A stretch of 64,000 bases of DNA from Enchytraeus crypticus (Eukaryota > Annelida > Clitellata > Enchytraeida > Enchytraeidae): the NCBI GenBank assembly GCA_905160935.1, contig CAJHZI010000512.1:602001-666000 (forward strand), read 5' to 3'. Of the stretch, positions 10,985 through 60,100 are shown one piece after another. A program made the position numbers and the translations under genes. The notes beneath the pieces were generated by a model. It worked only from the letters and a program-made list of their open reading frames with translations. It was not told where the DNA came from and ran no database searches. Every line of letters starts with the position of its first letter. Position 1 is the first letter of the stretch.

Positions 10985-13900
10985 CTATCTCGGAAGAATG
11001 CGCAAGGTGTGTGGATCCGCCATTAGGGCCCTGGTGAAGTACCCATCATCCTTGATCTTGGTCACGCCCTCTGGTGGCAGAATATTGAACTGCTGGACGA
11101 AGGCCGCCAGTATCAGGAACATTTCTTGACGAGCCAGTATCTCTCCTATACAGGACCGCTTACCTGAAATAACAATGTGTGGATTGTATAATGTTCCTGA
11201 GTTTCACCCGTGTTGGATCCGGGTTGCTGAAAAGTAGACCAGAAGTAGACTACACGTGTCGTAAAGGACGACAAAGCACTAAGATCCAAACGAACGTCAG
11301 ATTGAGCATTCAGTTTGTGAACGGTTAGTATTCAGAAATTGCTATAAAATTTCTAAAATTAATGGAAAATTCCATAAACTAAAAAGATGAGTGGAGAAGA
11401 TCTATTCGTATCTCGACTTAACATGATAATGATGACGACGATATTGATGATGATAAAGAAGATAATGATAATGATGATGATGACGAGGATTATGATGATG
11501 ATAATGATGACAATGCACACTGTCTTTGCTTAAATGTCGAAAATAGATGAATTTATTTAAATATTTTACAAGATATATAAACTTCATTAGAGAACCTTTC
11601 TGATGTTGGTGAAATCTACATGTATTTATTTAACTTAAATATGAAAAATGATAAAATAAGCCATACGGAAGGCATAAATTATATAAGACTTAGTATAATT
11701 ATGCAAATTGTATAAAATATTACCTTGAGAGAAGCAAATCACTAGATCCCTGTGGATTATGGAGCCATTAGAATCCAGAAATCTATCTGGATTAAACTTT
11801 TCCGGTTCCTGCCAAACGTCTGGATCCATGTGAGCCGACCAGAGATTCACCAGGATCTAGACATATAAGACAATTAACGTCCGAGACAAACATTCCTATG
11901 TAGCTTTTCAAAGAATTGAAATAAGCTATAGACCTTTTGTAATATGTAGCGGTAACTCTGTTCGCATAATAAACAAAGCCTAGTGGGAGAGTGGGGAAGG
12001 GTGTGTGCTTCTATTGCCGGCTGGCAATATTCTATATATTCGTATATATTAATTATGTATTTCTTCATTTATTAACAGAATGGTATTTTCAATAAGTACA
12101 AAAAAATTATATTTCAATTTTTTGTCAAATGAGGAGAAATATATGTCTTATTTTACTGTTAGTAAATGTCTGGATAGAATATCTAGAGAGGATATAGGCC
12201 TACTACATTTTAAGGATATATTGCACTGCAGTTGCCTTCCGCAAAACAATCGATTTTATGATGCACAGTGGCGCCGCTCCAACAAATGAAATAATACATA
12301 AGGTGATTTATCAAAGTAAACAACTTTATAAAAGGTCTATTGAAAAACAGCAGCGCATATAGGATAAAAATTCAGGATGACTAATTAAGAAATTCTTTCG
12401 TTAAGCATCTTAATGGAATATTAAATAAAATAAAATGTTTCGCTTCAATGACACGCAAATGGGAATTTGAATTTTTATATTCAGAATGGGAACTTTAATT
12501 CTTATTTTCAGTTATTTTCAGAATTTTTGTACATCGCTTTATGTGGGAACAATTGACTTTACAATGGGCGATATCTCCCTCAAATGTTCTGCCAAGAGGC
12601 AGATCCATATTAAAAATACATATTTCTTCTATATTAAATGTAAATACACAAATATTATCTATACTCAAGAGTTTGCTTTAACGCTCCATAGAGAGCACTC
12701 TAAAAGTCAATAAGTTAATCTCCTCACAAATTGCTAAGCTTTATCCGCACCTGAAGATTGCGAATTAGTTCTTATCTCATTGCCAGCTGGTAGCCTATAT
12801 TATAATTATTATACTGCATGTATGTATAGCAGAAAAAGTAGTCTATAAAATAGTCCCTACATAAATGTCAGCTGGTGTTTCCAATAATAGACTAAAAATA
12901 GACTATTGAATAATCCCTATCTCAGTTTCTGCTGGTATTTCCAATACTGAATAAGATTATAAATAGACTACGGCATAATTCCCACCCCAGTTTCAGCTGG
13001 TATTTCCAATTCAAGAATAGAAATAGACTATAGAATTATTCCTACCATAATGTCCGCTTGAATTTCCAATACTGTATAAGACTATAAATAGACTACATAC
13101 TACCTCAGTGTCAGCTGGTATTTCCAATACTGTATAAGATTACAAATATACTGCAGAATGATTCCTACCTCAGTCCCGGCAGGTATCTCATATCCAGCTA
13201 TCACCGTGTCCACGGTGGTCATACGAGGCACTCCGAAAGGAAGATCAGGTCTGTAGCGGAACACTTCCAGTACCACAGCCTCCACCAGGCTCAACCGAGG
13301 TTTATCATCCAGGGATGGAAGTCGATCACGTGGTACAACGGAATCCACTTGCTCTTGGAGACGAGACTGGATATCCGGACGATTGGCCAGGAAGAGGAAA
13401 GCCCAGTCCAGTTGATAGGAGGTCGTCTCTGAACCGGCTAGCGTTATATCTCTGATCATGATTCACAGAGATTTAGTTTAGTTCAATTGTTTAGTATAAA
13501 AGCAACAAAGGACTGTTCATTAAAATTCATATAAAATTCGTATAAAAGGGTTCATATCCAGTGCTTGAACCGTCGCTGATGCACTTGCGAGGAGCCAGGA
13601 AACTAGCATTAAACTTGATTCTAGCTTTGGTTGTGTCTTCCGCTCTAGAGATAAGGTAAGCATTACAAATATTACGCAAAACTATTAATAAAGTATGAAT
13701 GATTTACTTTTAGCTAACTTTATATACAGTGGTCTTCATTTCGCGGAAACAATCCACTTATAGAAAGAAAAAATACAACATATTAGGCCCTAAAATAGTA
13801 GTAAAATTATTTTTTAAAACTATTAATAAAAATTTAAGCTGGGTTGGATCGCTAACCTTACAATGCAAGCCAGATCCCTGCTGTTATAATCCTCCTCTCC

Positions 13901-14837
13901 AGTAAGTGCAACGTACTCTCTAACGAAGTTACAAGTGGAATCATCCACCTTGCTGACACTATCCACCACTTTATTTTCCACAAAGTCGATGAACTTGAGA
14001 TAGCGCTGTCGGGATTCATTTAGCTGACGCTTTCCACTCGGAATTTTCGAGATAATCGGGAAGATATCGTAAACATAGTCCAGCGAATCCAGCAGTATCT
14101 TCCCGGCGCTCACTATCTCATGACCGCGTTCTTCGTCATAAGGAAACCTTTCATTGAAAAGAATATTGTAGATTATATTCCAAGTGGAGTATTCCAGAAT
14201 GTAGAGGGGTGACCAAGGTTTGTCTTTCATGGAGTGAGCGTAGTCCAGCAGATAGGAGAGTTCCTCGTGGATAACTTGCTCCATGATCGCCACGCTACCG
14301 AAACCAAACTTCTTCATTACGGCGTAACAGTTTGCGCGAACCTTGGCGTGCGTCTCACCTGTTGGTCTCATGGTCACTCCTGAAATTATAACGTAATTTA
14401 ATTAATAATATTTGATAAGAATAATAGTAATAATAATGGTAATAATAATTAAGGTAATTTAATTAATAATGTAATTTATCTAGTCAATTTACGAAATTAA
14501 TTTAATTATTGGCTCGAATGATTTGATATAATAAATTGTCTAATATACCTAAATAGTTGACCAAATTAATTTGGCTTTAGACTCAAATAAATTAATACAG
14601 TAAGTTGTCTAATTTATCTCGATAAATGACCAAACTGATGGCAATATTTATTTGACTATATTATACTTGCTTAATTAAGTTCCGGCCTCGATAAATAAGA
14701 ACTAATGTAAAGTTTCTCCGTTCAATCGCGGGTCTGAGCACCAGATTGTCAGAAAACAGCAGCAACTACATAATTAGAACGCTATTGTGGTCCAAGACAA
14801 CATCCAATATTATATAGAGTAAGTAACTTCTCTGGCA

Positions 14838-14898
<61 letters not shown>

Positions 14899-16969
14899 AC
14901 TTACTCTATTTTCTCTATTATTAATTGTTAAATATTAAATAAATATTAAATATTAACGTGATTTAATTTTTAAAAATGTAATTTAATAGATTGCACGTTT
15001 AATATCAAACCGTAGCCATGATCTCCCCAAATGTATTTCTCCACGTAAATGGGACCTCTTCCTGAAAATGCTTTAGAATTTTTCACCAAAGCTTCGTGGA
15101 GTATATCATATCCGTTCAATACCACCATATACCTAGACACAGAAAGCAGAAAATTCGCTGCCTATACATGTAGGTCCACATTTATAGTTTTTATAAATCT
15201 TTACCTTTCTTGAATTTCTTCAAACTGCTTCAGATATCTTCAAATTTCTTCATACTTTTAGCTAGTAGATCCCTATATGTAAATCTGTCTGTAATCATGG
15301 AACTGTCTACTTGCAGGTCCATGGTATATAACGCCTCCACTCTTCTCTGTCTTCCGCTTTCATCGTTATGTCCACTTACGAGTGTGCCCTTAAATCATCT
15401 AACATGCCTAATCTCGGCTTGCCGAACCATCCCTTTCCTTCCGTTCTACCGTCTATGACCTCTTTTCATGGACTTTCACCTCTTATGATGTGTCCAATCC
15501 AACTCTTATTCCTATTTCTTAATACATTTATCAACTGTCTATCTGTAACAACTCTCTCCAGAATTTCCTTATTTGTAAAGTTTCGAGTCTAGCTAATCCT
15601 CTCCATTCTTCTCCAAATCCAGATTTCCAGTGCCTCCAGTTTCCTAATATCTTCCTTCCTTAAGGTTCGTGTTTCACATCCATTCTATAGCGTGGTCCTA
15701 GCAAAGGTTTTCACTATCTTTATCTTTGTGTCTTTCTTTAGACCATTTATTAAAAGTTACCGAAGACCAATTTTGCTTTTGTAATCCTACTGCATATTTC
15801 CGTCTCACATTTCCCATCATCGGTTATAGTATAACCCAAATATTTGAAACTCCTTAACTGTACTAATTTCGTTCCATTTATTGTGATATTAACTTCACCT
15901 TTATGATTGGATACTCTCATCACTTTGGTCTTTTTGATATTAATTTTCATGTTAAATCTCAAAGCCGTATCATTCAGCCTATCCATTATCTTCTGCAGTC
16001 CAGTCTCGCTGCCCGCTGCTAATCCTTGATCATCTGCAAATCGCACATCTTGTAAAAATTTCCCTCCTACTTTCTCCATGTCTTCCATAGCTTCCTTCCT
16101 GGACAACATACTAACCTTAAAATCAAGCATTTATATATCTAGAGCACACCTGTCATGGCTCGGACCATTCTGCTTCTCAGAAAGAATGTGGCAGAATATA
16201 AGACTTTAGCAAATCTTAAAAATACTACAACGAATATGATTTAGAGCTACTCAATTTACCTATGTGAAGAAATTGTATATATTATATCTTATATAAATAA
16301 AATTTGAAGTCAATAGAGAGTAAGATTAATAATAACAATACGCTAATCTGTCGGTAGAGAGTTCCACTAAAGGGAACCTCAGTTAGTGATATGTTTTATA
16401 GACAGAAAACTGAGGCTAAACAAGGTTTTATCCAATATCTCTCAATCGGTTTAGATTAGATTAATCTTCAGAAAGATGTCATTAGGTTATCCCTGAGTTT
16501 TCAATAGTAACTAAATCTCTATGGATTCGAGGTCGATTGCTAATTGATCCGATCATCTTCTGTATGATTGGAGTGATTCGGTAACTCTTAAGTCCTTAGA
16601 TAATTCAGTTTAAATAATATTCTGATAGTTTTACTTAATTGGAGAGATTCAATCGAATCCAAACCCTAGTTAAACTGTGATTAAATGAAAGACGATGACG
16701 ATTTTCCTAATTAATTCACCTATCAGTTGCTGAATAACTTACTTGGAGCCAGCCATCATGGAGAAAATCTTGCCATATTTCTTGCATTTTGCCGTCAACG
16801 TCAGGTGGTGATTTGAAAGACCTAGAAAAGGCAGTGACCCGACCACGGGCAGACTGGGAAGAGCTGGCGGTAGTCTGTACTTACTCTTCGTCTTGTTTGA
16901 ACCAGACACAGCGTACAAGCATATGGCGAGGACAGCGATTACTGCACCGATTTCCGTTGAAGTTTCCAT
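10985..16969 (-). CDS. cytochrome P450, CYP2 clan (CYP17/CYP1-like), gene A
   Basis: Haem-thiolate monooxygenase, predicted ER-anchored; the substrate cannot be read from sequence. Exons (minus): 16969-16743, 15132-15011, 14379-13857, 13451-13169, 11856-11724, 11163-10985, all with GT-AG junctions, giving 488 aa. It has an N-terminal hydrophobic anchor ([16 protein letters not shown]), a proline hinge (PPALPSLP, then GSLPF), the I-helix oxygen-binding motif AGSETTS (about residue 296), K-helix ExxR (E353-VF-R356), PDRF (408-411), and haem signature FSQGKRSCIG with C434 as thiolate ligand. The signature is split by a phase-1 intron after [14 protein letters not shown] is typical of CYP17-type sequences. 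Intron positions 1, 2 and the last agree with those known in vertebrate CYP2/CYP17 genes. Sister copy: pseudogene B. The exon 4 donor is embedded in a minisatellite (12850-13172). No lesion was found. Confidence 0.93.
11205..11520 (+). mobile_element. dispersed repeat Rep-III with (GAT)n tail, in gene A intron 5
   Basis: Contains the family words CACGTGTCGTAAAG, AACGTCAGATTGAGCATT and AGAAATTGCTATAAAATTTC, and ends in a GATGAT/GATAAT microsatellite. It is antisense to the gene. The orthologous insertion is at 31655-31950 in copy B, so it predates the segmental duplication. Confidence 0.7.
12850..13172 (-). repeat. minisatellite built from the exon 4 splice donor of gene A
   Basis: About six units of 58-65 bp are marked by TACCTCAG-like words at 13166, 13101, 13043, 12983, 12918 and 12858. 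On the minus strand each unit carries the last codons of exon 4 (PAGTE-like) and the start of intron 4. Four of the downstream copies keep a GT at the donor position (13101, 13043, 12983 and 12858), and the copy at 12918 lost it. The same array exists in pseudogene B at 34290-34540. Confidence 0.85.
14841..14895. repeat. (TA)n microsatellite in gene A intron 2
   Basis: A pure TA run of about 27 units between exons 2 and 3 of gene A. Confidence 0.95.
15300..16135 (-). mobile_element. LINE fragment: reverse transcriptase C-terminal part, in gene A intron 1
   Basis: The minus-strand frame at 16130-15750 encodes a typical non-LTR reverse-transcriptase segment: FADD-like catalytic motif ([11 protein letters not shown]), [13 protein letters not shown] and KTKVM, then [18 protein letters not shown]. 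After frame breaks there are further segments ([20 protein letters not shown]) and the 3' end of the family near 15320 (TATACCATGGACCTGC). It lies in the same orientation as the host gene. Copy B (35470-35640) retains only the 3' end and the sequence right after an internal deletion. It is decayed and not autonomous. Confidence 0.85.
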
Positions 16970-22525: not shown

Positions 22526-25500
22526 TCATACTCTGGGCACCAATCTTATCTTATGCTTGACAGCTGTCAGGGTTCTAATGAAGACCATATCGTCCTTGAC
22601 CTTGAGCTCGCCCTCTGGTGGCAGAATGTTGAACTGTTGAACGAGAGCTGAGAGAAAGAGAAACATTTCCTGACGAGCCAGTATCTCTCCCAGACACGAT
22701 CTCTTACCTGAATATAGACAAGTACTTTAAGTAATTCAATAAAATAAATTCTCCTAACTAAATAATTAAATATATAACACCGCCTCAAACATAATGTTAC
22801 AAATATGTGTAGCAGGAAAATTGAAATTAAACAATTCTTTTGACTAATAACCAATTTCAATCTGGTAGAGTTAACAATTATTGTAACATTTAAGTCAAAG
22901 CATTGATAAAATATGCCGCCATTTTGGGAATTGATAAATCACTTAAAAATAATATTCCCCCATTTTGTGATTTGATAAAGCACTGAGAAATTAGTTCACC
23001 ATTTTGTGATTTGCTAATGCTTTGAAAAATTAATCGACCATAATATGATTTGAAAAAGAGTTGAAAAATTATGTCACACATGTAAATGCACGAGGATTTA
23101 TTACCTCGAAATCAGTTCATAAATGAGTAAAATAAAAATCAATTAGAAATAAGAGTTTTAGTTAGGCTCGCACTCGTACCATGTGAGAAAGTAATCATCA
23201 GGTCTTTGTGGACTATGGATCCACTTGAATCCAGAAATCTTTCAGGATTAAACTTTTCCGGTTCATTCCACACTTTCGGGTCCATATGAGCCGACCAGAG
23301 ATTCACCATAACCTGATTCAATTAAATTTAAAGACCACAAAATATCATTAATGAATATAAAGTGTATATTAGAAGGAATCTATAATTATAGTCATTGTAA
23401 AGGAGAAATACTAAACAGAAGCCTTGCAATAATATTACCTGATATAATTAAATTTAAAGACTATACAATATAATTAATGAATATAAAGTGTGTGTTAGAA
23501 AGTATGTAATCATTATCGCCATTGCAACGGAGAAATACTAAACAGAAGCCTTTCAGCATGTTTTCTTAAGTAATTTTAAGTAAACACAACCTCTCCAATT
23601 CAGATATATTATGATAAAAATACATTTTTATCTGCATTTAACATTCCCTTTAGTGTTCTATATTTCTTGTATTCTATAGAATGACAATTCCTGAAGAAAG
23701 ATTTCAATTAGTTTCCTTTCCATGCATTTGTAAGCAAAAGATAAGGAAGAGTAACTATAAAAAGGTACAGCTATGGTAGACAAAACAAAAACAAAAAGTT
23801 ATAATAAATGATGATAATAAAAGTAGGCTAGATCATGGAATATCTCAACATCTATCTTAACTTTAGTAACTTATTGAAAACTTATTTTTAAAGTCCACCT
23901 CGACTCCTGCCGGGATTTCGTATCCTGAGATTACAGTGTCCTTCAGAGTAAATCTTGGAACCCCGAGCGGAACGGCTGTCTTCAATCTATGTACTTCCAG
24001 TATAACCGCCTCCAGGTAGCTCAGTCCTGGTTTATCATCCAGAGATGGAAGTCGATCACGTGGTACAACGGAATCAATTGCCTCTTGAAGACGAGACTGA
24101 ACATCCGGGTGATTGGCCAGTAGGATTAGAGCCCAGTTCAACTGACCGGAAGTTGTCTCAGTGCCAGCGATTATTAAATCCCTTGAAGAACAATACATTA
24201 TACAAATAAGCAACTGTAGACTTTCTTAATCATTATACTAAATATATGTTCTACAATTATTCATCCATTCCCAAAAAAACCCAATACCTATTCATGCCAA
24301 TTTCCAAAATCCTAGCGCAGTTGAATGTTCAGACTACAGAACAATGAGCTTAATAGTACACGTGTCTAAAGCCTGATTAAACTATTAAATAATCGTATTA
24401 AGACAAAATTAACAACAAGTCAGACAATTATTCTGATTCTTTACAAAATAGGAATTTATTTCGAGAATATCATAAGAAGCAATTAAGCTATTTTTGGGAA
24501 AAATTTAAGGAATCAACTTGAAGCCATCACAAATTATATCTTCTAAATCAAATACCTTCACTAGAATTTTACTAAAAGCATAGATTTGTTTTATTTTGTC
24601 TAATCAACGTGCTCACCATATAAAATGCGCTCTAGTTAGCCGGAAAGAAGACTGTTACGACTGGACCTGCTTTTTGGTAGGAAATAGAGAAAGAGAGAGA
24701 TAGAGAGAGAAGGGGAGACAGAGACAGAGAGAGATAAAGCGATAGAGAGAGAGAGAGAGAAAGAGACAGAGAGAAAAAGAGAGAGACAGAGAGAGAAAGA
24801 GAGATAGAGATTGAGAGAGGAAGCGAAAACATTAAATTAATACCTGACAATAACTGCCAATTCCCTGCTATTCTCTTTCTTCCCGGTTACCCTTAGATAT
24901 TCTTTGACAAAGTTACGGGACGAGTCATCTGAATCCTCCGAATCTTCTGGTTCATCAGGACTCTCATTCACTCGAGCCTCGCAGAAATTCAGACAGAAAT
25001 CATAGAACTCCTGCTGCTTCGCAAACTGTCGCTGGGAGCTCGGCAATCGAGCGAACAATGGAAAAATATCATAAAGAGGATCCACGGATTCAACGATCAC
25101 CTTACAAGCCGACACCAACTGTCGTCCTACTACGTCGTCGTAGCGAAACCTCTTTCCAAACATGAGATTGTAGATGACGTTGAGAGTGGAGAATTCCAGA
25201 ATATGAGCAGGATACCAGGATTTGCCATTCAAGGCACGGATGTGATCGATCAGGCGAGTTGCTTCTTCTTGAACCCTTTGTTCCATGACGGTGCGACTTC
25301 CAAACCCGAAGTTCTTGAGCACGGCAATGCAGTTAGTGCGTATCGTGCGCTGAGCGTCGCTCGCTTGTCGCATTACAATACCTAACATGAAACCAAGAAG
25401 CATGGAATTATTTTACATTGTTATGCACGAATATGTACATGTATATATGTGTAAAGGCCCTATGTGTATTAGATATTTTATGCTTCACTACTATACAGTC

Positions 25501-25708
25501 TCTTTCTCGATCCTTCTCTCTCTCTCTCTCTCTCTCTCTTTTCAATGTACTACCAAGTGGCAGGTTCAAAGTACATATACATGTACATACTTAAAGTCTG
25601 CCTTCTTTTTCCATAAGAGCACTTCTTAGATCAACAAGTTTTTCTATGCCTTATCCTGAAGAGAAAATTTTACCAATGCTAAATATACATATATATAATG
25701 TTTTTATA

Positions 25709-25751
<43 letters not shown>

Positions 25752-26601
25752 CCTATTTGTATAAGATTCATGCTTAGGTTATAACATTTGGAAAATTCCA
25801 GAATCTATAGTAGATAAAGGTAATTATAAGTTCATATTTTATAAGGTTTCCCTAACCTTTTCCATGATCTCGCCAGACGTACTTTTCTGCAAATAGCTCT
25901 CCTCTACCAGCAAACTCTGCGGAGTTCTTTATCAGAGCCTCTCTGATCAGATCATGCCCGCTCAGTACCACGATGTACCTGTCAGAGAAATTATATTAAA
26001 TGTTAAAATGATGTCATTCACTGAATCAATTAATAAATGAATCAGTCTGTCAGTCAGTCATGTCATCTCAATCGAAATGTTATTTTATAGATTCCATCTC
26101 TCTCAATGAGGAGCATATCGTCGATTCAAATGTTGGTGTCTGAGTAGAAAGCTTCACATTTACTCTAGACTTAGACTGTGAAATATACAATTAGACTATA
26201 GATGGCAGCTCGGCTTCATTTTTATACTGGCTTCCGCAATTTCCAGCAAGTATTAAAAAAGTAAATTATCAGCCTCTATATGTCAAAAGTGATTCAATTT
26301 CGGATTATTTTTTAACTATTTTTGATTGCAACATTCAGAAAACTGGTCCTAACTTAACAGAGGTAGCTGATACTTACTTCGAGCCAGCCAAGAAGGAAAA
26401 TATCTTTCCATATTTGTGGCACTTTTCCGTAAGACACAAGTGAAGGTTTGATAGGCCACTGAGGAAAGGGAGTGAGCCAAGGATTGGAAGATGTGGTAGA
26501 GAAGGAGGTAAATTTCTCTTCTTCTTATTAGAGCCAGATACAGCGTAAAGACAGATTGCAAAAGTAACTAGTACGGCCCCCATTTCCATTGACACTTCCA
26601 T
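22526..26601 (-). CDS. cytochrome P450, CYP2 clan (CYP17/CYP1-like), gene C
   Basis: Intact monooxygenase of 493 aa. Exons (minus): 26601-26378, 25978-25857, 25381-24844, 24181-23899, 23312-23180, 22707-22526, with consensus GT-AG junctions and matching phases (2, 1, 2, 0, 1). Visible features are an N-terminal anchor ([16 protein letters not shown]), hinge PPSLPHLP, I-helix AGTETTS (about 300-306), ExxR (E357-VH-R360), PERF (412-415) and haem signature FSHGKRSCLG with Cys438. Exon 3 is 15 nt longer than in A, D and E because of an acidic insertion ([12 protein letters not shown]) in the F/G-to-I region. It groups with D and E by [12 protein letters not shown] and [22 protein letters not shown]. 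It lies head-to-tail between gene A and pseudogene B. Start chosen because it aligns with METS and METV of the paralogues. Substrate unknown. Confidence 0.93.
24650..24828. repeat. (GA)n-rich tract next to the exon 3 donor of gene C
   Basis: GAGA repeats with GATA/GACA interruptions begin about 16 nt past the exon 3 donor (minus strand, therefore a pyrimidine-rich CTCT tract in the transcript). The Leu/Ser-rich minus-strand open frame is an artefact of this tract. Confidence 0.9.
25505..25540. repeat. (CT)n microsatellite in gene C intron 2
   Basis: A short pure CT run, followed by the Rep-IV-like word TACCAAGTGGCAGG, which is the usual neighbour of (CT)n at repeat ends in this window. A (TA)n run of about 36 bp follows at 25712-25748. 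Confidence 0.85.
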
Positions 26602-31230: not shown

Positions 31231-31654
31231 AATTTTATTAAGACTAGCTTAACATATTGCAACGCTAAATCGTTCTTTCTGAATTTAAATTTACGAAGAA
31301 AGGGTGTGGCATTCGCGTCTAAATTCAATGTTCAATTTATTACGTTAAATCAATTCATTATAACTATTTTGTTGAAGTCACGAGTATAAGATACTACGCT
31401 TGGATTATTTATTTAAATTACTAAAATTATTTTGTAAACATATTTTGTCTATCTCGGAAGAATGCGCAAGGTATGTGGATCAGCCATTAGGGCCCTGATG
31501 AAGTACCCATCGTCCTTGATCTTGGCAACTCCCTCTGGTGGAAGAATGTTGAACTGTTGGACGAAGGCCGCCAATATCAGGAACATTTCTTGACGAGCCA
31601 GTATCTCTCCCAGACAAGATCTTTTACCTGAAATAACAATCTGAGGATTGCACA

Positions 31655-31950
31655 ACATTTATGAGTTTCACCTATGTTGAAAAAATGGACCAGCCGCAGA
31701 GTGCACGTGTCGTAAAGGACGACAAAGCACTAGGATCCAAACGAACGTCAGATTGAGCATTCGGTTTGTGAGAGCTTAGGCTTCAGAAATTGCCACAAAA
31801 TTTCTAAAATGAAAGGAAAAATTTCATAAACTAAAAAGATGAGTGGAGGTCCATTCGTATCTCGATTAAACTAGGATTCAAGAGAAGATGATGATGATGA
31901 TAATAATGATGAGGATGACAATGATGATGATGATGATAATGATGACAATA
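31655..31950 (+). mobile_element. dispersed repeat Rep-III with (GAT)n tail, copy B
   Basis: Same position in the intron as 11205-11520 of copy A. It ends with AACTAGGATTCAAGAGAAG followed by a GATGAT array. This shows that the (GAT)n tail is part of the repeat. Confidence 0.7.
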
Positions 31951-33487
31951 CCTTTCTTATATGTCGAAAATGGAAGAATTAATTTAAATATTTTAAACGA
32001 CATATAAATTCATTAGAGAACCTTTCGAATATTGGCGAAATCAATATGCATTTATTTAACTTAAATAGAAAAAAATGATATAATAAGCTATACGGAAGGC
32101 ATAAATTATATAAGACTTAGTATAATTATGCAAATTGTATCAAATATTACCTTGAGAGAAGCAAATCACTAGATCCCTGTGGATTATGGAGCCATTAGAA
32201 TCCAGAAATCTATCTGGATTAAACTTTTCCGGTTCCTGCCAACGTCTGCATCCATGTGAGTCGACCAGAGATTTACCAGTATCTAGACATATAAGACAAT
32301 CGTCGTCAGAGACAAACATTCCTATGTAGCTTTTCAAAGAATTGAAATTATCTTTTGAAAAACTGCAGCACAAATGGGATAAAAAATTCAAGATGACCAA
32401 TTTAGAATTACTTTCGTTAAGCATCTTAAGGGACTACTTAAAAAAATGAAATGTTTTGTTTCAGTAACTAGCAAATGGGTACTTTAATTCTTTATTTTTT
32501 TCAGAAATTTTGTATATCGCTACATGTGGGCACAATTGGCTTGACAACAGCCTCTCTCAAGTGTTTTGCCAAGTGGCCTATCCATATTAAAATGCATATT
32601 TTTTCCATTTTAGAAGTAAATACAAATCTACATTCAAGAGTCTGCTTTCACGCTCCATAGAGAGCACTCTATAGGGCAATAAGTTAATCTCCTCACAAAT
32701 TGCTAAGCTTTATCCACACCTGAAAACTGCAAATTAGTGTTATATGGCCGTTATATGATATGATATTATATAAACATTTACTATAGTAACAGTATAACAT
32801 TTACCGTATAGCAGTACTTACATTTATTGTTGTGGGCATTCATTGTGCTCGCTTCGGTGTCTCTTGTGCAAACGAATTGGTTATAGTGTTAATACTATGG
32901 CATTCGTCTATGTACTTGTCCCTATGTGTCTTAATCATTGTGTGTCCTTGTATGCTTCCTTGTGTGTCTCTATGTCTCACTGAGTATCTGTGAGTGTCCA
33001 CTATACATAAAGGACCTCCCTTAGTGTTACGGGGTCTGTTGATTGTGAGTTTGCTGTTGAACACACGGCTCGAGGTTTGAATCCTGCATTATCTGATCAT
33101 TTCCTCTCCAGCTATAATCGCTCTATGCTAGACTTAGTCGTTATGGTTTGTCTGCATTATACACATCGCATGCTATCTACAACCTGTACTAGAAACCTGT
33201 GTTATCTACAATAAAATATAGTTATATCAACAACGGTGTCGTCATATTAACTACTGAACATAGTTGATATAGCAGGGCCTGCCCGCTTTGGTGGTCCAGA
33301 TCCCATACATACCTGAGCTCCCACTTAGCTAGTATTTCCCAGAAGAGCACACACTCGACTCTCATTAGTACATTAGTTTTTATCTCATTCTCAGCTGGTA
33401 TACCATATACAGTGTTTTATACATGTACAAGAGCAGAAATAGACTATAAAATAGTTCATATCTCATTGTCAGCTGCTATACCATATA

Positions 33488-44520: not shown

Positions 44521-45002
44521 ATCTGATATGATTTATATTGCATTAATCACCTTATGTGAACTTCTGCTTACTTTATTGAGACTTTACAAGTTATATTTAA
44601 CAATATAAAAAATTTGCAGCAAACAATTTCGCCCGATAAAGGGCTTACATTAGTTTAACCAGCTTTTAATAAAAAATAAAAAGGATTGGAAGATCAGCTA
44701 CACATAAATGTAATGCATAGTATTTGACATTGGCCGCCATTGCATGATTTGCTTCTAAAACGAAGTAACAAACAAAACTGCCAATGGTGTAAGACATACA
44801 GTATCACTAAAACGGAGTTTCACTGTTTTTGTATCACAAGGGTTACTGTAGGAGAGTCCAGTAGGGATTCTAACACCTGGACGCTATCCTCTCTTTCAAG
44901 CTTGCTATCCATTCGTCCATTCAACCAGTGCAGATAACAGAAATATTATATCTCGTCGACCCTGACATCACAGTAGCTGCTATACTACTACAGATGTTCT
45001 CA
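44521..45002. other. spacer between the piggyBac relic and gene D
   Basis: No coding frame with support. The plus-strand frame 44740-44937 shows no family features. It includes the 3' flank of gene D. Confidence 0.4.
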
Positions 45003-45091
45003 GTTACAGCTGCCGAGCCACCAGGCGCAATGTGTCCTGACAGCTGTCAGAGTTCTAACAAAGATTACGTCATCCTTGATCTTGACCTTAG
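45003..45091 (-). repeat. tandem duplicate of the 3' end of gene D coding sequence
   Basis: About 88 bp immediately after the gene D stop repeats the last about 29 codons and stop region (45092-45179). Shared words include GAGCCACCAGGCGCAATGT and GACAGCTGTCAGAGTTCTAA. The copy has substitutions and a small indel, so it could only be 3' UTR. Confidence 0.9.
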
Positions 45092-47108
45092 CTACAGCTG
45101 ACGAGCCACCAGGCGCAATGTATGCCTGACAGCTGTCAGAGTTCTAACAAAGGTCGCATCATCCTTGACCTTGAGCTCGCCCTCTGGTGGTAGAATGTTG
45201 AACTGCTGAACGAGAGCTGAGAGAAAGAGAAACATTTCCTGACGAGCCAGTATCTCTCCTAGACAAGATCTCTTACCTGAAAAATGAATTATGATTTAAA
45301 TGAAACATAGAATTTAAGATTTACCTCTTGTAATTTGTGCAGTTTTTAACTTAGTAAGCAAATCAATTGAATTCTATGGCGTTCAATTTAATATAATACA
45401 GTCCAAAAATCGTTATCACATTCGTTATCTCCTTATCACATAAAACTTTGCGAAGCTGGTCTATAAAATACATTAGAATTCAATGTAAGATAATATAAGT
45501 ACGAATAATATAAACAATAAAAATGTACAAAGGTACTGAAGTATTGAAGATATAAATGAAAGTATTTAAAATAAAATGCAATAAATTATGATATAACATC
45601 AAGCGATTCAACACATAAAATGACAATAGCATTTAGTGTAGCATTTTAAGTTACCCGGGTATGCGTTACAATGCACTGCAATGACTAAATGCGGAATATC
45701 TAAATCCAGTATAAAATAGTATAATCACACCATAATTTGGATTTAATTTTCGCTCAGTTCACCCTATAGTCCTACTAATCTTGGAGATGTTTTGGAATAT
45801 GTGACTCATCCAGTTAATGCAATCTGCACACAATTGATAATGTGTAATCCACGGCAAAACGAGATACGAATCCGTGCCAGTCCATTATCCATAAGAAGAA
45901 AGATACTAACGAAGGAAAAGCAAGCCATGAGAAGGAAAGGCTTACCTTGAGAAAACGCAATCATCAATTCTCTTTTTACAGGTTTTCCATCGACGTCCAG
46001 GAATCGTTCTGGATTGAAGACTTCCGGTTCATTCCACACATTCGAATCCATGTGAGCGGACCAGAGGTTGACCACAATCTGTAAAATTGAGAAAGATTAA
46101 AGAACTAGCGAAACATTTCAGTGTTGGGTCAAAAAGCTTTACGTTACTTGACAATGATGATATAGGGGATCGATTTTTAAACGTTCTATTAAATGTCGTA
46201 TAAATTAATTAGGCCCATTATATAATAATAACACACATTATAGTGAAATGATCAGCTACGTTGATATCCATCACTTTTAATACCACATGTTAAATCCGTT
46301 AGGCAATTTTGTCCATTTTCCGTGTAGTCAGTCCAGTGAATGTCCGTAATTTTACTCTCAGCTCAGCGCGGCTGGGATTCGAACCCTCAAGGGTGCAATT
46401 CACCCCAGGGTCTGTCATTTGAAACTTCATGACGCTATTTATACCTCTAACCATTGCGCTCTTGAGACATTCTAATAATGTACATATAATGTACAGTATA
46501 TCTAAATGTACTATGCTGTAGTGCAAATAGTGTTAAGTTTAGCTCTTACAAAATTTAAACCAGCAGAACCAAGACTCATATTTATATTAACATTCTGCTT
46601 GCAAACCTAGGCTTACTATATCAACAACAAATAGACCCCATAGAGGAAACAGGGTCATACAAATCTTATTGGCCTATAGCTTGGAAAATATAGGCCTAAA
46701 GGTTTAGACTGTTTAAAAATAATGCTCATAATATCAGTTTCAAAGGTAAGTTAAATATTAAAATGCATTAAACGAATATAAAGGAATTTAAACATTTAAA
46801 TGGAATATTCATGTCGGAATCTGCTGCTTTTAATGCCAGGTATATAAATATATTATAGTTCTCTAATTGATTGTTCACTATAAATGCAGTTTATAGCAAA
46901 TTATCAGCTACGATCCTACAAAATATCTGACATTGACTCAGTCTGCTTCAGCCAAGAGTCGGTCACTAACTTTTTTATAATGTTACTTGTTTCTCTACAC
47001 ACTTAGCTATTGTGACAATCAAAGCCATTGGATCAGTACGTCGAGATATCAACTAGTACCTCTGTCAATATAGTGACACTAAATTACGTCAAGATATCGA
47101 ATAGTATT

Positions 47109-47161
<53 letters not shown>

Positions 47162-50100
47162 AAAAGATTCAATCATTTCACTCAATAGAGCTAGAAAAGT
47201 CTCCCAAAATACATTAATAATTTTCACGTGAAATGAAAATAGCATAAAGGTCCGAAGACTCTAACGTGTACCTCTGTCCCAGCCAGTATGTGGAATCCAC
47301 CGATGTTGGTATCGTCCGTGGTAACTCGTGGTAGACTGAGTGGTACGGCTGTTTTAAGTCTCAGCACCTCTAGTACCACCGCCTCCAGGTAGCTCAGCCG
47401 AGGTTTATCATCCAGAGATGGAAGTCGATCACGTGGTACAACGGAATCTATTTCCTGTTGAAGACGGGACTGGACGTCCGGATGATTGGCCAGTAGGATT
47501 AGAGCCCAGTTGAGAGAGCCGGATGTTGTCTCAGTGCCAGCTAAAGTTAAGTCTCTGCAAATCAAAAGGATTACATATCATTACTAACATCTATAATAAT
47601 TTATAACGTCAATATCGGAGAAAATTCGAGAGGAAAGGCTGCGCTGATACGGCCATGTCATGAGAAGTGACGACCATTCGGTGATCAAGACAGCGATGAA
47701 TCTTAATCCACACGGTCGTCGTCAGAGAGGGAGACCCAAGAAGCGTTGACTGGAGAGAATAATCGAGGACATGCGCATAGTAAAGATCAATTCGGAAGAC
47801 GTCCACGAACGCGGAAAATGGCGGCAGGCATGTCGACAGGCGGACCTTGTAGAAATGCGAGATTAACGCTAAGAAAAAGAAGACTTAAATCTCTAAGTAA
47901 ATAGGCCTACCGCTCATTCTCTGGTATTTCCCGACACTAGCTATAGATTAATCAAACCAATATTGTGCATACTCTGGTTTTTACCATAACATCAACAACG
48001 CGCATGCTCTAGTATTGACCACTGATCAATATTGTACCTGCACGAGTAATGATCGTATTAATAGTATTGACAAGTAAATCATTATTATACACTCTCCAGT
48101 CGAGAATAATAAATATATATTTTGCATACCCTAGTAAAATAAATTTAGTTAGATATAATAATAATTTCTATACACTCTCCAATTCCCATAACTAGAAACT
48201 ATTTACGGGCAATGTTTCGTAAGTCCAAAGCCACATATCAATACATATATTTTAGCATATATCTTTAAAAATTGCTTCATATATGGCCCATTTTATAATC
48301 ATAGATAAAAGCATATCGTTGAGGAGTGACCTTTAACCTGCCTGCCGGGTGGTCTGTCTACGTTAAGCTGCCTCACAAGTGAAGCAGCTACCTGGATATA
48401 CGCTAAATGAAATTGCCTACTCATAGACGGTTAATGATTGATGTTTGTCTTCTATATTGAAGAACCAAATCACCTGACTATTGCAGACATTTCTCGTTTG
48501 TTAAAAGATTCCTTTCCATTTAGCTTTGTGTATTCGTTGACAAAATTTTCGCTTCCAGCATCCGCCGTATGGACGCTTTCTTCCACCGTACTGTCACAGA
48601 GATCCATGTACTTGCTGTAGATGTCCACGAGTGCCTTCAGCTTCCGCTTCATATGTGGCAGCTTGCCCACAACAGGGAATACGTCGAGTACAGTGTCCGC
48701 CGAACCTGTGTATTGAAATGATTTTGATTTTTCCTGTAATTTGTAGCTTCGATTTTTATTATTGTTAGAAACGGCTGGGAACTAATGGCTCATCAATTAT
48801 TCTTCTGTAAATTGGGCGCCACATTTATTGTAGCTTTGATTGCTATGTTTATTACAGATGTGTAACGAAATCATTAGATGCTAGACAGTTACTGGTGCGA
48901 ATTGAAGCATTATGAAATTCAGATCCAGAATTGCATTTAATTTTCGAGGACTGTATGTTTACGTTATTTCAAGCATGTTCATATAACTTTGCATTTAATG
49001 CAGTATAAAACTAATATTCTTAATATTTTCACAATTTAAAGTTTAACATATTAATAACGCACAAGTATGTTGAAATACAGGTGTTTCATTAACGTTTCTA
49101 TAGCAATTCCGATGATAACCCAATATACATGGACATAACCTGCAATCTTATGACAGAGCTCTGCCATTTCTAGCCCCACTGGATCGTCATAGTTGTATCT
49201 TCTACCAAACATCAGATTGTAGATGACATTCAGGGAAGTGTGTTCCAAGATTGAGGCTGGATACCAGGCTCTCCCCTCCAATGAGCGGAGATATCCCATA
49301 AGATGATCCGCCTCCTCGTGGATCCGCTGCTCCATCAGAGCTCGGCTGCTCATTCCGAAGTTCTTGAGCACGCTGAGGCAGTGAGAGCGAGTCCGGCGCT
49401 GAGTGTCGCACGTGGGGACGAAGATCACACCTGAGTAGTGACAACATCAACAACAACAACAATAACAGTTACAACAACAACAATAACAACAAAAGTATCA
49501 GTAGTAACAACGGAAAAGCAACAACAACAGCAACAACAATAGCAACGACAACAACTACAACATCAACAATGATGTGCTGAGTGTCGCACCTGGAGACGAA
49601 GATTACACCTAAGTAGTGACAACAATAACGTCAACGGCAACAACAGTAAAACCACCAGTAACAACAACAACAGCAACAATCTTGCGCTGAGCGTCGCACG
49701 TAGGGATGAAGATCACGCCCGAGCAGTGACAACAACAACATCAACAAAATCATCAACACCAACAGCAACAACTAAAATCCTGCGCTAAGTGTTTCAAATA
49801 TGCCAATTTGATTAAACCAATTCACATCCAAAAATGTACGAATACAATACATACAATAATAGAATACAGTACAATATAAAAGTATTGCACGAAACTGAGT
49901 AGCCCAATCCGTGATATTGACTAGCCCAATTCCTAGTAAAGGTGTGACCATTCATTGTCAAGGTTGAGATATATAGTCAATAGGAAATAAATAAGCAGAC
50001 ACTAGAAGGTGAAGGCCGGACGCAGTTTGTTGACACACAAATGTTGTTTTTGTATTGTCGATCCTAGGAGTTTGATCTTAGAAGCGCAGCATAATCGTTT

Positions 50101-51204
50101 TCAATGTGATAGAATAGGGCCTGTAGGAAATGGTAAAACGCTTTATGTAATTATCAGCATCTACGGGGTAAATACCAATATAAATGTCTATTTAAGGAAC
50201 ATTTTATAAATTTTCCTGTATTTATCATTGTGTTCAATGCATTGTTTATCAACAAACGACTATCAGCTGTAGCGTCGTCACTTAATTTAAGTTGATACCT
50301 TTTCCATGATCTGTCCAGACATGTTTTTCAACGTACACCTCTCCCCTGCCTGAGAACTCCGTGGAATGCTTCACGAGAGCCTCTCGAATCAAGTCATAAC
50401 CGTTCAGTACCAGGATGTATCTGAATTCATAATGTTTAAAAAACAAATACGAAGTTTAATTAAAGTGATTTCCATGCTCTTTAGTAGATCAGTGACGGGA
50501 AGAGTACTGGATTGGACACCCTGCACTTATTGACCATCTGTACCATTTGAACAGCTTGCCAACAGACCACAGGATCAGTCTATATACTTTATATTCTCGT
50601 TAAATTTTAAAATAGCAATGGCATGTGACATATCACCTTCTCCATCTGCAATGAATATAGTCAATCATACAAATTTTTTATTGAATTACAAATAAATCTG
50701 CAATAGTAATTTAATGCACACCAACGTCAGAAAGGGCATTCGGTTATTGAGCGCCTAGGCACCAGAAATTGCTACTCAAATTTAAACCAATGGAAAAGTC
50801 TCAAATAAGGTATTGATAGATGATTGATGTAGGACAGAGATGATTTGATACAGTCTATTCGTATCCCGACCATACTTTAACTGGGATTCAAGGAAAGATG
50901 ATGATGATGATGAGTAATTTAGTGCACATTGAAATACGAACTGCACTTAAATCAAACCAAAATATAAATCAAAACATAAATCTAACCTTGATCCTGCATA
51001 GAATGAGAATATTTTTCCATATTTCTTGCTCTTCTCCGTAAGACAGACATGAAGATTTGATAGACCGCTCAGGAATGGCAGAGAACCAACAATGGGGAGA
51101 CTGGGTAAGGAAGGTGGAGCATTTGGATTACTCTTTCTGGGGTTAAAGAGAACCCAACAAGCGACCACCACAACCAGAAGCACTGCCGTGCTGACCGTTT
51201 CCAT
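45092..51204 (-). CDS. cytochrome P450, CYP2 clan (CYP17/CYP1-like), gene D with extra intron
   Basis: Intact monooxygenase of 487 aa in seven exons (minus): 51204-50987, 50420-50299, 49430-49140, 48705-48474, 47554-47272, 46078-45946, 45276-45092. The region that is one 523-nt exon in A and E is split here by a phase-1 intron (49139-48706) after HKIAG and before [10 protein letters not shown]; the two pieces again total 523 nt. Features are an N-terminal anchor ([14 protein letters not shown]), hinge [16 protein letters not shown]-helix AGTETTS (about 293-299), ExxR (E350-VL-R353), PERF (405-408), and haem signature FSQGKRSCLG with Cys431. An upstream in-frame Met exists at 51264, but the METV start aligns with the paralogues. 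The 3' end ends LVARQL and is followed by a tandem copy of itself. Substrate unknown. Confidence 0.93.
46230..46475 (-). mobile_element. SINE-I copy in gene D intron 5
   Basis: The plus strand shows GATTCGAACCC near 46377 and the reversed body (ATTATAGTGAAATGATCAGC near 46233). It lies in the same orientation as the host gene. Confidence 0.8.
47108..47158. repeat. (TA)n microsatellite in gene D intron 5
   Basis: A pure TA run of about 23 units, about 115 bp downstream (minus sense) of the exon ending at 47272. Confidence 0.95.
47605..47880 (+). mobile_element. LINE C-terminal relic of a second family, antisense in gene D
   Basis: The plus strand reads, with in-frame stops, [16 protein letters not shown], [20 protein letters not shown], and [17 protein letters not shown]. 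This is the familiar C-terminus of non-LTR element polyproteins and differs from the MKRKAE family seen at 28925 and 61300. Only this tail is present. Confidence 0.8.
47885..48473. other. intron sequence of gene D, no further feature
   Basis: The intron between the exons at 48705-48474 and 47554-47272. Apart from the LINE relic it shows nothing recognisable. Confidence 0.5.
49431..49800 (-). repeat. exon 3 acceptor duplications and (CAA)n in gene D intron 2
   Basis: Copies of the exon 3 5' edge (GCGCTGAGTGTCGCACG, then GACGAAGATCACACCTGAGT on the plus strand, at 49397-49440) recur at about 49574-49620 and 49682-49730, with a shorter trace at 49780-49797. (CAA)n/(CAACAT)n tracts separate them. 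Each of the two longer copies keeps an AG in acceptor position. Confidence 0.9.
50720..50912 (+). mobile_element. dispersed repeat Rep-III with (GAT)n tail, in gene D intron 1
   Basis: AACGTCAGAAAGGGCATTCG, TGAGCGCCTAGGCACCAGAA and TTAACTGGGATTCAAGGAAA are followed by (GAT)n. Antisense to the gene. Confidence 0.8.
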
Positions 51205-54195: not shown

Positions 54196-57100
54196 TTATT
54201 TTCTTTCCACTAGACGCAGTGTATGCTCCACTGGATTCAGAGTTCTACCCAACGTCATATCATCCTTGACCTTGAGCTCGCCCTCTGGTGGTAGAATGTT
54301 GAACTGCTGGACGAGAGCTGAGAGAAAGAGAAACATTTCCTGACGAGCCAGTATCTCTCCCAGACAAGATCTCTTACCTAAATAGAACAACTACATGCTT
54401 GTAACAACCCGACCAATTCATCAGCATTGCCTCTATGCGAGCATTACCGACTGCTTCAGTTTTTAAGCAAAGCTGGTAAAGCTAAGGTTAACGTCACTCG
54501 AAAGCGATATCAGTGACGGGAGATACCAGGATTTGAACCCCGAATCATCTGATCCGCGATCTAGTATCATTCGGTAGCGTCTGGAGTAGCATAAGGTAAA
54601 GTCTACCTCATGTCGGATTACGAATATCAGCTGAATTATTGAAAAAGTATTCATTAAATTTCTCATTGTTAACTTTAGAACCACAATATAACAAGGTTGA
54701 ATGAACCGAAAATGTTTGTGTCGTCTTCTATTTCAACATCACCGGTATCAAGTTCTAAAAGCAACTATGAGTGTTCCAACATTTTAAATGCTGTACGTAT
54801 TGGTCATAACTTACCATGTGAGAAAGCTATCATTAAATCCCGATTGATAATTATTCCGTTTTCATCGAGGAATCGCTTCGGATTGAATTTCTGAGGTTCG
54901 GTCCAAACATCCGGGTCCATATGAGCTGCCCAAAAATTTGTCACGACCTAAATCGAAAATAGAATCAGTCAATTGCGAACTTGTGACTATTGTACCAGCG
55001 TTAACAGAACCAAACTGACTGATAAGTTAGTCATTTAAGAAAGAATTGTTTACAGGTACGATAAAGTTTGAATCGTTAACAAAAATTTACAACTAGAATA
55101 ACTTCAATTTAATTACGATCAACGAATTAATTACAGAAATTGGAAAAAAACAAAAATTATATATTTAAAATGGGACAATGTCGGTAAAATTTAGCAGCCA
55201 AAATTTGATCGTGAAGTAAGATCTCTTTCTCCCTCTCTCTCTCTCATCCATTAATCATACATTAATCATAACATTAATCATAACATTAATCATAATATTA
55301 ATCATATATAAATCCTACATTAATAAAAATTTAATCATACATTATTCATACATTAATCATATGTTAATCATATATTAATCATACTTTAATATTACATTAA
55401 TTATATATAATCATTTATTAATCATAACTTAATCATGCATTAATCATACATTAATCATATAGTACCCATACATTAATCGTACATTAATAATATATTAATC
55501 ACAATTTAATCATACTTCAATCAAATATTAATCATACAGTAATACTTAAGTTCATTAATCTTACATTAATCATTCATTATTCATTATTCATAGATTTATC
55601 CTACATTAATCCTACATTAATCCTACATTAATCATACATTAATCCTACATTAACTGTAAATGCCTACCTCAGTTCCTGCAGGTATATTAAATCCACCCAC
55701 TACTGTATCAGCCAGTGTGAGGCGAGCAACTCCCAGGGGGGCAGCTGTTCTGTACCTAAGAACCTCAAGGACAAAAGCTTCCAGGTAGCTCAGTCCTGGT
55801 TTATCATCCAGAGATGGAAGTCGATCACGTGGTACAACGGAATCTATTTCCTGTTGAAGACGAGACTGGACTTCCGGATGATTGGCCAGTAGGATTAGAG
55901 CCCAGTTTAGCTGACCGGATGTTGTCTCTGATCCAGCGCCCATTAAATCCCTGTACGAAACAACAAATTCATTTGACATAAATGCACTGAATTTAAAAAA
56001 TCAGCCGTTAAAGAGACAAAATTATTCAGTAAATTCCGTATTTCACCAACTATTTAGATGGATCAATAAACAGTCAATAGTGCAGGCCTACTTTTGTTTT
56101 TAAGTTAACTATCATCATCCTTGTATGAGGAAGCGGACGTAAACCCTTTATTATTTTTAATTAGCTTACCAACATGAATGCTAATAATATGACGGAATGT
56201 TAAAAAAAAATTCTAGGAATACTATTTTTATACTCTTCTCGATAAACACAACTTCAATAGTCGAACATAGCAACCGTAGCAAACCAAAGAAACTATGCAA
56301 GAGCAATTATTCAGATAGACATAGCTACTAAACAGGATCAAAAATAATAGTTAACAACTTCAAATCAAGAATAATAGGAAAGGCTACAATAGAAGAGTTA
56401 GGTAACTCTGTGTGTATGCATTGTCAGCTATGTATAATCAATTGTGATGTAAGTTAAAAATAAAATATTTATGCCTACTTTAGTATATTGTGGCAGTAAT
56501 AAGAGTAATTGATAAATAGCATAATGATAATTATGAAAAACCAAACACCAAGAAACATTTAAAGATAAGAGTATAGGATTAGTCAACCCTCAATTGAATC
56601 GACCCTAGTTAAATGGTGATGCAAGTGACGATGATAATGATGGTGATGATGATGATGATGATAATAATGATGCTAACAATCATGATGATGACGATGATGA
56701 TGGCAGTAGAGAATTGAGCTAACCAATAGAGAATTGTAATTAAATAAAAATGATCGAAATAGAAGCAAATTCAATTAATATGTGCATAATAATAACAACA
56801 ATAATAATAATAAAGGTTTAACGTCAGTTTCCTCATCCAGGGATGATGTCATGACGTCCCCCACAGCACAGATCACTATAAGGGCATATACATAATAGAT
56901 TTTCTGCACCTGATCATGACGGCCATATCTCTCTTATCAAAAGCTTCAGCTCCCACTATCCTACGATATTCATTAACAAAGTTGTCGTTTCCTTTATCGA
57001 CATCAGTAACGTATTGTTCTATTTGAGATTCCCAGAACTGCAGGTATTTGTCGTAGATCTTGTTACCAGAAGCTAAATAGTTCTTGAAATACGGAATCCG

Positions 57101-60100
57101 AGTTAAGATGGGAAAAACATCGAAAGCGGGATGAGCTATGTCTATTAAAACATGAGGATAAGTTCTTATCTCCTGACCCAGTTTATCATCATAGCGAAAT
57201 CTTTTGCAGAACAGCAGATTGTTGATGACATTCATCGTGAAGTGCTCAAGGATATGAGCGGGATACCACGCTCTTCCAGCCTTGTAGCGGACATATTCCA
57301 GTAGGTGTGTCAGTTCTTCTTGGATTCTTTGCTCCATCACAGCTCGACTTCCGAATCCCAGATTCTTGAGGACGGTGAGGCTGTGTGAGCGAACCTGGCG
57401 CTGTTCCTCGCTTGCTCGGCGAAAGATTATACCTAAATAAATTATATAAATATATAAATTATTAAATAAATAAATGATAAAATTGTTTTCTATTGTTAAA
57501 TTGCTTGGATAAAAATTAAATTTTAATATTTGGCGCTGCTCCTCGCTTGCTCGTCGAAAGATTTTACCTGAAGATACGAGATGTTATAAGCATTCAACCG
57601 CGATGACTACTAAAAGTATTTTCATTTAAGCAAGTTTCCATGCTTTAAATTAAAGCTGGTAAAGCTAGTGTTAACGGCAGTTCCTCACACGAAAGCGATG
57701 TCAGTAACGGGCGAGCTCAGGATTTGAACCCCACGCATACTAATCCGCGGTCGAACAGCTTATCGACATAGCCACTGGCTCCAGCCAGGGGCAATCATAT
57801 CTCAGCATGATTTGTTTAAAATTATAACTAAAAATCGATATTGAAAGGAAACATTCAAATGTAACGTTAGAATGCATGCAATACTTTTCAAATCAAATAT
57901 TATTACTCACGAATTTCGCGCGAGTTTCAATACTTATCGAGTCACATATTAAATAACTAACTCAAAATTTATTTAAATGTCTTCAGTCTTTCAGAGTAAT
58001 CGATTTAGTGCATCTCTAAATGCTATATACTTGAAGAGTAACGCATGGCAGTTTTAGTTACCCCGGTATGAGGGAATATTTTGGAATAACTTCAAAATAC
58101 ATCAACGTGTAAAGGAGCCATGCGCAACTAGAACTCTGCAGTTACCTCTACCGTGATCCGGCCAGATATGCTTTTCTGCGTAAAGCTCGCCCCTTCCAGA
58201 ATATTCTAAAGAATTCTTTATCAGAGCTTCACGTATCAGTTCATGGCCACTCAGCACCAGAATGTATCTGTAAGTATAAAAAAATAAGCAAAAGAAATGT
58301 CTACAAAAATAGAATGAGCCGGTGGCATTTTGGAAAGTTGTTCGACAGCGGATCAGCAGATGCAAATGCAATTCAGACTCTACCCGTCATTGATTTGCCA
58401 TCGAGCAGGTAACTGGCTTGGCTCTGTTGCATAACACAGTTAGTAGGAGGTTTACGTTATCTTTTCATGAAGCTAATGAATTATTCGTTTAAGAATTCTT
58501 CGAAATTATATAATTGAATTAGTAATAAATTAATAATAAATTAATAATAAATTAATAATAAATTAATAATAAATTAATAATAAATTAATAATAAATTAAT
58601 AATAAATTAATAATAAATTAATAATAAATTAATAATAAATTAATAATAAATTAATAATAAATTAATAATCAATTAATAATAAATTAATAATCAATTAATA
58701 ATAAATTAATAATCAATTAATAATAAATTAATAATCAATTAATAATCAATTAATAATCAATTAATAATCAATTAATAATCAATTAATAATCAATTAGTAA
58801 TCAATTAGTAATCAATTAATAATCAATTAGTAATCAATTAGTAATCAATTAGTAATCAATTAATAATCAATTAGTAATCAATTAGTAATCAATTAGTAAT
58901 CAATTAATAATCAATTAATAATCAATTAGTAATCAATTAGTAATCAATTAGTAATCAATTAATAATCAATTAATAATCAATTAGTAATCAATTAGTAATC
59001 AATTAGTAATCAATTAATAATCAATTAATAATATATTAATAATAAATTAATAATATATTAATAATAAATTAATAATAAATTAATAATCAATTAATAATAA
59101 ATTAATAATCAATTAATAATCCATTAATAATCAATTAATAATCAATTAATAATCAATTAATAATCAATTAATAATAATTAATAATCAATTAATAATCAAT
59201 TAATAATCAATTAATAATCAATTAATAATCAATTAATAATCAATTAATAATCAATTAATAATCAATTAATAATCAATTAATAATCAATTAATAATCAATT
59301 AATAATCCATTAAAAATAAATTAATAATCAATTAATAATCAATTAATAATCCATTAATAATCAATTAATAATCAATTAATAATCAATTAATAATCAATTA
59401 ATAATAAATAATTAATAATAATCAATTAATAATCAATTAATAATCAATTAATAATCAATAATAATCAATTAATCAATTAAAATCATTAATAAGCAATTAA
59501 TAATCAAGTAATAATCAAGTAATAATCAATAATAATCACTTATAATCAATGAATATCAATTAATAATCAATTAATAATCACCCCCCCCCCCCCATTAGTA
59601 AATCAATGTAAATACAATTGAAGAATCAATTAGTAATCAATAGTAATCAATTAATAATCAATAGTATCAATAGTAACAAGTAGTAATCAATCGTAATCAA
59701 TAGTATCAAGCAGTAATCAATTAGTAAATCAATTAGATCAATTAGTAATCAATTAGGAATCAATTAGTAATTCAATAGAATAATTCTATCAATAGTATCA
59801 ATTAGTAATCAATAGTAATCAAACTAATACTCAATAATATCAATTAATAATTAAATAATAATAAATTAATAATCAATGAATCAGTCAATTTATAATCAAT
59901 GAAATAATCATAATAATCAATTAATAATCAATTCTAATAATTATAATCAATTAGTAATCACTTAATACTCAATTAGTCTAATCCTAGAATCAATTAGTAA
60001 TCAATTAATAATCAATAAAATCAATTGTAATACAATTCGTAATCAATTAGTAATCAATTGAAAAAAGTCAAGTATATCAATTAGTAATCAATAGTAATCA

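Follow-up and report, generated by a model that had tools for sequence, protein, structure and literature searches.

How do the ends of coding exons come to lie in tandem copies, splice sites included, outside the exons to which they belong? This question is raised by a cluster of five cytochrome P450 genes in Enchytraeus crypticus, contained in 64,000 nucleotides of contig CAJHZI010000512.1 (assembly GCA_905160935.1, positions 602,001 to 666,000). This whole stretch is called the window here; it has 34.1% G+C, and the genes, named A to E, lie on its minus strand and are transcribed in the sequence E, D, B, C, A. A sequence-only reading had noticed such copies in four of the five genes and took their recurrence to suggest a shared mechanism. 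Exon ends have indeed been copied outward, into introns or beyond the stop codon, and most of the copies include a splice site. We think it rather probable that they are minisatellites of the "mirage" type, that is, ordinary local tandem duplications which reached exon ends, are neutral and need no dedicated mechanism or function.

A self-comparison was run over the whole window without regard to genes, at offsets of 20-500 bases and with 1,958 microsatellite bases masked. Matches scoring at least 18 were merged, and 20 tandem arrays were obtained. A P450 exon end lay inside six of them: the exon 4 donors of A and B, the exon 5 acceptor of C, the exon 3 acceptors of D and E, and the stop codon of D. 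All five genes are therefore affected. The best scores of these six arrays were 32.8-67.7, whereas none of 8 block shuffles scored above 26.7. Chance could reach scores near the cut, at 18-20 (3 and 7 matches of at least 20 in two shuffles); the weakest of the 20 arrays scored 30.9. Fourteen arrays contained no exon edge, and the window is therefore generally rich in tandem duplications; one of the fourteen is a distant part of the B array and two others lie no more than 10 bp from an edge. The six arrays go back to about five independent duplications (A/B, C, exon 3 of D, the stop of D, and E), because the arrays of A and B descend from one ancestral event.

Dispersed and inverted copies were sought with 58 exon edges as queries (expectation value up to 0.01), matches at the corresponding edges of other genes being filtered out. 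Beyond the local arrays, the A and B arrays matched each other and were matched by an E edge, and two distant copies were found in B. Repeats near the A1 and B1 starts also match 6404-6612. A C edge matches the outer copy of D, an 11-bp array in E was also matched, and there were a few short matches besides. Three matches, of 26-46 bp, were on the opposite strand. In viral contigs, 48 stretches fitted the search pattern and none of them encoded a relative.

The exon 4 donor array carries the clearest history. Its unit of about 60 bp consists of about 21 bp of the end of exon 4, the donor and intron sequence. In A, the true edge unit (65 bp, from 13189) is accompanied by copies A1-A5 of 58, 60, 65, 60 and 86 bp and by a decayed copy A6 at 12795; A4 and A6 have AT in place of GT. 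In B, the true edge unit (60 bp, from 34550) is accompanied by copies of 60, 63 and 51 bp, then by a last one (B4) at 34316. The distant B stretch (33369-33493) aligns with A5 and A6 over 112 columns with a score of 44.2, and a B unit aligned with the same stretch scores 25.9, compared with shuffle maxima of 11.8-12.8. Unique sequence 3' of A6 recurs in B at about 32750-32616. Because the distal units are orthologous and share this unique flank, the array is older than the duplication of A and B, and the two genes are not independent cases. Exon 4 is 92.2% identical between the genes, and introns 1, 3, 4 and 5 are alignable in part. A tree of the units, with the two distant B units left out, placed A5, A6 and B4 together (support 0.97) and was poorly resolved elsewhere. 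The A and B units differ from each other by 10-55% and, in the one haplotype, are unlike in length and arrangement; duplication and turnover of units between the paralogs are evident from these alignments. Compared with A, intron 4 of B (32750-34284) has an interruption on either side of the two distant copies, one of about 0.8 kb and one of about 0.6 kb. The B array was later interrupted, presumably by insertions. In intron 4 of E, an 11-bp array (55246-55661, 37 copies by TRF) starts 7 bp past the donor; the matching intron end bears the 60-bp arrays in A and B.

The other four arrays differ in what was copied. The block in C is almost wholly intron: 98 of 116 bases are identical over the intron end, and the scan carries the copy through the AG and at most 5 bases into the exon. 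At exon 3 of D, the repeated block holds 33-35 exon bases and 39-49 intron bases within the TTG tract. Its additional copies lie at about 49608 and 49719, the pairwise local alignments give 80/105, 61/72 and 70/87 identities, and the AG is no longer present in the outer one. At the 3' end of D, 74 of 83 bases are identical. The E copy (38 of 42 bases identical) comprises 5 bp of intron and 37 bp of exon and precedes a 93-bp spacer with 91% A+T. Self-scan and alignments recovered all five sites named by the sequence-only reading, i.e. the exon 4 donors of A and B, the exon 3 acceptors of D and E, and the coding end of D. Its count of four affected genes held for those four and fell short by C. 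Its statement that adjoining intron or untranslated region was copied each time is not general, as shown by the 5 bp of intron in E and by the 83 bp aligned at the end of D, which are all coding with no untranslated region. A microsatellite-driven origin was rejected as a general rule: only one of the six edge arrays, and five of all 20 (p 0.27), adjoin microsatellites. The coordinates are collected in the table.

Table. P450 genes and exon-end copies in the window, with strand and the means by which each was located
Feature	Position	Strand	Description	Basis
P450 gene A	10985..16969	-	six exons, frame intact; exon 2 end at 15011	tblastn, splice edges, spliced translation
Gene A exon 4 donor array	12740..13196	-	true edge and six copies, A1-A6	TRF; self-scan (12834-13196); unit alignment
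P450 gene C	22526..26589	-	six exons, frame intact	tblastn, splice edges, spliced translation
Gene C exon 5 acceptor	23308..23555	-	126-bp tandem duplication of the end of intron 4 including AG; copied AG at 23438	TRF, scan, alignment
P450 gene B	31449..36873	-	broken copy with exons 1, 4, 5 and 6, without exons 2-3; frame broken in exons 1 and 5	tblastn, spliced translation
Two more decayed exon 4 donor copies in gene B	33369..33493	-	about 0.8 kb past the main array; orthologous to A5-A6	edge search and alignment
Gene B exon 4 donor array	34230..34554	-	true edge and four copies	TRF, self-scan, unit alignment
Gene D coding 3' end	44999..45177	-	88-89 bp tandem duplication right behind the stop codon	TRF, scan, alignment
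P450 gene D	45092..51204	-	seven exons, one additional intron (48706-49139), frame intact	tblastn, splice edges, spliced translation
Gene D exon 3 acceptor	49396..49745	-	true edge and two copies within a TTG/CAA microsatellite	scan, alignment, splice scoring
P450 gene E	54196..62417	-	six exons, frame intact 3' of an unsettled start codon	tblastn, splice edges, spliced translation
Gene E exon 3 acceptor	57396..57572	-	one 42-bp copy, 135 bp upstream	scan, alignment

Judged by similarity, the genes of the cluster are animal cytochrome P450 genes, CYP1/2/17-like. PF00067 of Pfam was matched by pieces of A, B, C and E that each came from one exon (four of the five proteins submitted; the fifth was an unrelated open reading frame), and D was assigned through its tblastn similarity to E. 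Exon 4 of E had P450 1B1, 1A2 and 2D6 as its best matches among solved structures (within the best 60 of 204 matches). When the innermost splice sites are used, the spliced sequences of A, C and D each have an unbroken frame, 488-490 codons long with the stop counted. The frame of E is likewise intact at its innermost sites; its start codon is unsettled because the spliced translation began at an inner ATG. The heme-loop motif lies near the end of the spliced A, C, D and E products.

The additional intron of D splits, at a CAG|GT site and with no evident change in protein length, what is one undivided exon in A, C and E. Gain in D or loss in the other genes would account for it equally. Its origin from a duplicated AG|GT segment was rejected as the flanks are dissimilar (score 7.8 vs. 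a shuffle mean of 8.2); an old duplication might have decayed completely. In A, a 69-bp repeat (14389-14639) stops 10 bp short of the exon 3 acceptor. A 2.5-kb satellite with the unit AATTAATAATC (58504-61069) occupies much of intron 1 of E. Transposon remnants include a DDE_Tnp_1_7 transposase-like fragment just under the family cut-off (43207-43521, plus strand) and a reverse transcriptase-like fragment (15753-16130, minus strand).

Under the explanation that we favour, slippage or unequal exchange would produce local tandem duplications at the DNA level, and the duplicated segment would happen to include an exon end. The arrays all extend from the exon into the intron or downstream of the gene end, which leaves the innermost junction of exon and splice site intact. 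We infer that splicing takes place at this innermost site and that the copies are neutral; the duplications would be tolerated because the intact exon retains its own splice site. The copies would drift afterwards, and the units of the A/B array kept changing past the gene duplication. Selection would remove duplications within exons and tolerate those at edges and in introns. Edge copies might also be recognisable for longer, because protein selection holds one member of the pair. The occurrence of copies at the donor of exon 4, the acceptors of exons 3 and 5 and a stop codon, across all five paralogs, favours this neutral explanation.

Alternatively, exon edges may be true hot spots, where transcription, a DNA structure coupled to splicing, or a step in base composition starts or ends duplications. 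When all arrays are counted, this is not apparent. An edge was present in 6/20 arrays, where 3.9 would be expected (circular shifts gave p 0.14 and independent placement p 0.17), and the number of edges within arrays was 6 vs. 6.3 expected (p 0.61). With A or B dropped, the ratio became 5/19 (p 0.28-0.30). Two of the edge-free arrays with long units are special, one (33369-33493) being part of the B array and the other (7660-7921) a pair of which both copies hold a stretch, recognised by eye, of a tRNA-like short interspersed nuclear element. Their removal gave 6/18 (p 0.10-0.12), or 5/17 when B was removed too (p 0.21-0.23). For units of at least 30 bp, an edge was found in 6/15 (p 0.018-0.038), or 5/14 with A or B dropped (p 0.05-0.09).

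The longer units weigh against the neutral explanation. Among units of at least 40 bp, 6/10 arrays contained an edge, where about 2.2 would be expected (shifts gave p 0.003 and independent placement p 0.009), and with A or B dropped the ratio was still 5/9 (p 0.007-0.025). Unit cuts of 55, 65, 80 and 100 bp also gave p values of 0.001-0.016. Without the two special arrays, the long units gave 6/8 vs. 1.9 expected (p at most 0.0024), and 5/7 without B as well (p 0.003-0.008). When arrays no more than 15 bp from an edge were counted, 7/10 long-unit arrays (p 0.001) and 8/20 of all arrays (p 0.021) were included. However, the length cut and the removal of the two arrays were both chosen post hoc in a single window, and A and B represent one event. 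If we assume that copies at edges can be recognised for twice the time of free intron pairs, as the constraint on one copy leads us to suppose, the p values become 0.09 (6/10) and 0.16-0.17 (5/9); those of the reduced sets are still 0.031 (6/8) and 0.068 (5/7). The excess of long units may thus reflect a genuine preference for edges, and we take it as a hint rather than proof; hot spots are unlikely in our judgment. Of the shared mechanism that the sequence-only reading had proposed, recurrent local tandem duplication stands; for a tie to exon edges the long-unit excess is suggestive, whereas the edge-free majority of arrays and the non-significant overall excess do not support it. It is quite improbable that the junctions are hot spots which steadily yield outward copies of splice sites and that the upstream acceptor of E (+45 codons) is already used. 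If this were true, each gene of the cluster would display the material from which new introns and isoforms arise.

The copies could also be functional alternative splice sites that yield P450 isoforms. We scored splice sites with a matrix built from A, C, D and E, which supplied 21 sites of each type, donor and acceptor. The matrix is rough: the exon 2 donor and the exon 4 acceptor of A score 1.5 and -3.5, respectively, when left out, and the true sites of these four genes are favoured in the scan because they are part of the training set. Ranked among all GT or AG sites of the window, the copied donors at 13103 and 13045 in A (2/6) and at 34469, 34409 and 34296 in B (3/4 in the main array), and the copied acceptors at 57567 in E, 49608 in D (1/2) and 23438 in C, reached the 95th percentile or more. 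The remaining copies were below the listing limit or lacked GT or AG; the scanned stretches covered the arrays apart from A6 and the distant pair of B units. The donors of A1, B1, B2 and B4 reached at least the 98th percentile, and the acceptor of the E copy, which retains its AG, the 95th.

The predicted use of these sites argues against isoforms in most cases. In A, +65 loses the frame and +123 meets stops; in C, +126 keeps the frame with stops inside; in D, +178 loses the frame and meets stops. Copies 1 and 2 of B, at +60 and +120, are in frame and open, and +233 loses the frame, but B is a broken gene. The best case, and a point against neutrality, is E, where the copied acceptor would add 135 nt without a stop, or 45 residues ahead of exon 3; it is the sole open case among the four intact genes. 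Such an open spacer has a chance probability of about 0.06 in dinucleotide shuffles, and the insertion would land where the alignment with the C helix begins. Functional isoforms are therefore very unlikely in our view. The supply of alternative splice sites envisaged by the sequence-only reading exists insofar as copied sites are present and several score like true ones, but only the E copy leaves an open frame in an intact gene. If the copies are neutral, copied splice sites alone are no proof of isoforms. Finally, genome assemblies are weak at tandem arrays and repeated read placement might create false copies, but the divergence of the copies (10-26% in pairwise alignments, and the wider range among A/B units) and the orthology of the distal A and B units argue that the arrays are not a product of mis-assembly, an origin we find scarcely credible.

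Neutral duplication reaching exon ends thus remains our preferred explanation: the phenomenon is real, likely ordinary in mechanism, and notable for reaching every gene of the cluster. Among the papers listed from one literature library, no title or abstract opening reported exon-edge copies within a P450 cluster. Exon-boundary minisatellites are described in amphioxus and in recent human paralogs, and have been proposed as a source of new introns. With an array in each paralog, and one array traceable through a gene duplication, the P450 cluster offers a compact case for dating such duplications.

Intron gain through tandem duplication of segments carrying splice signals has been described for potato RdRp and for Drosophila cases (PMC4974935, PMC2891723). 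The duplicated P450 segments likewise carry splice signals; unlike in those cases, no new intron is seen to derive from the P450 copies. In human genes of segmental duplications, tandem repeats at exon boundaries are reported to occur in paralogs and to be able to alter splicing (PMC2812944). The P450 arrays resemble them in having minisatellite units at boundaries in paralogs. The human repeats vary in copy number between near-identical paralogs and have transcript support, whereas the P450 copies are known here from DNA sequence alone.

The closest likeness is to the amphioxus mirage minisatellites. As reported (PMC3087553, PMC3902484), their copies extend over the 5' or 3' exon-intron boundary in units of 10-160 bp, many keep AG or GT, and the unit number is unstable. 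They affect Adh3, the globin genes BflGb6 and BflGb9, TnC and PGBD5, and normal splicing is undisturbed by the copied boundaries; the TnC and PGBD5 cases are from PMC3902484, and the PGBD5 copies are imperfect. Similarly, the P450 tandem units span the exon-intron boundary at exon 4 of A and B and at exon 3 of D and E. The array at exon 5 of C also crosses it, with at most 5 exon bases, and the array at the 3' end of D reaches a stop codon rather than a splice boundary. As in mirages, the copies lie outside the coding exon, and the frames of A, C, D and E are intact at the innermost sites, B being broken for other reasons. Unlike in amphioxus, five paralogs of one cluster are affected at different edges, one array is older than the gene duplication, and one lies at a stop codon. 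By this comparison, the P450 arrays belong with the mirage minisatellites.

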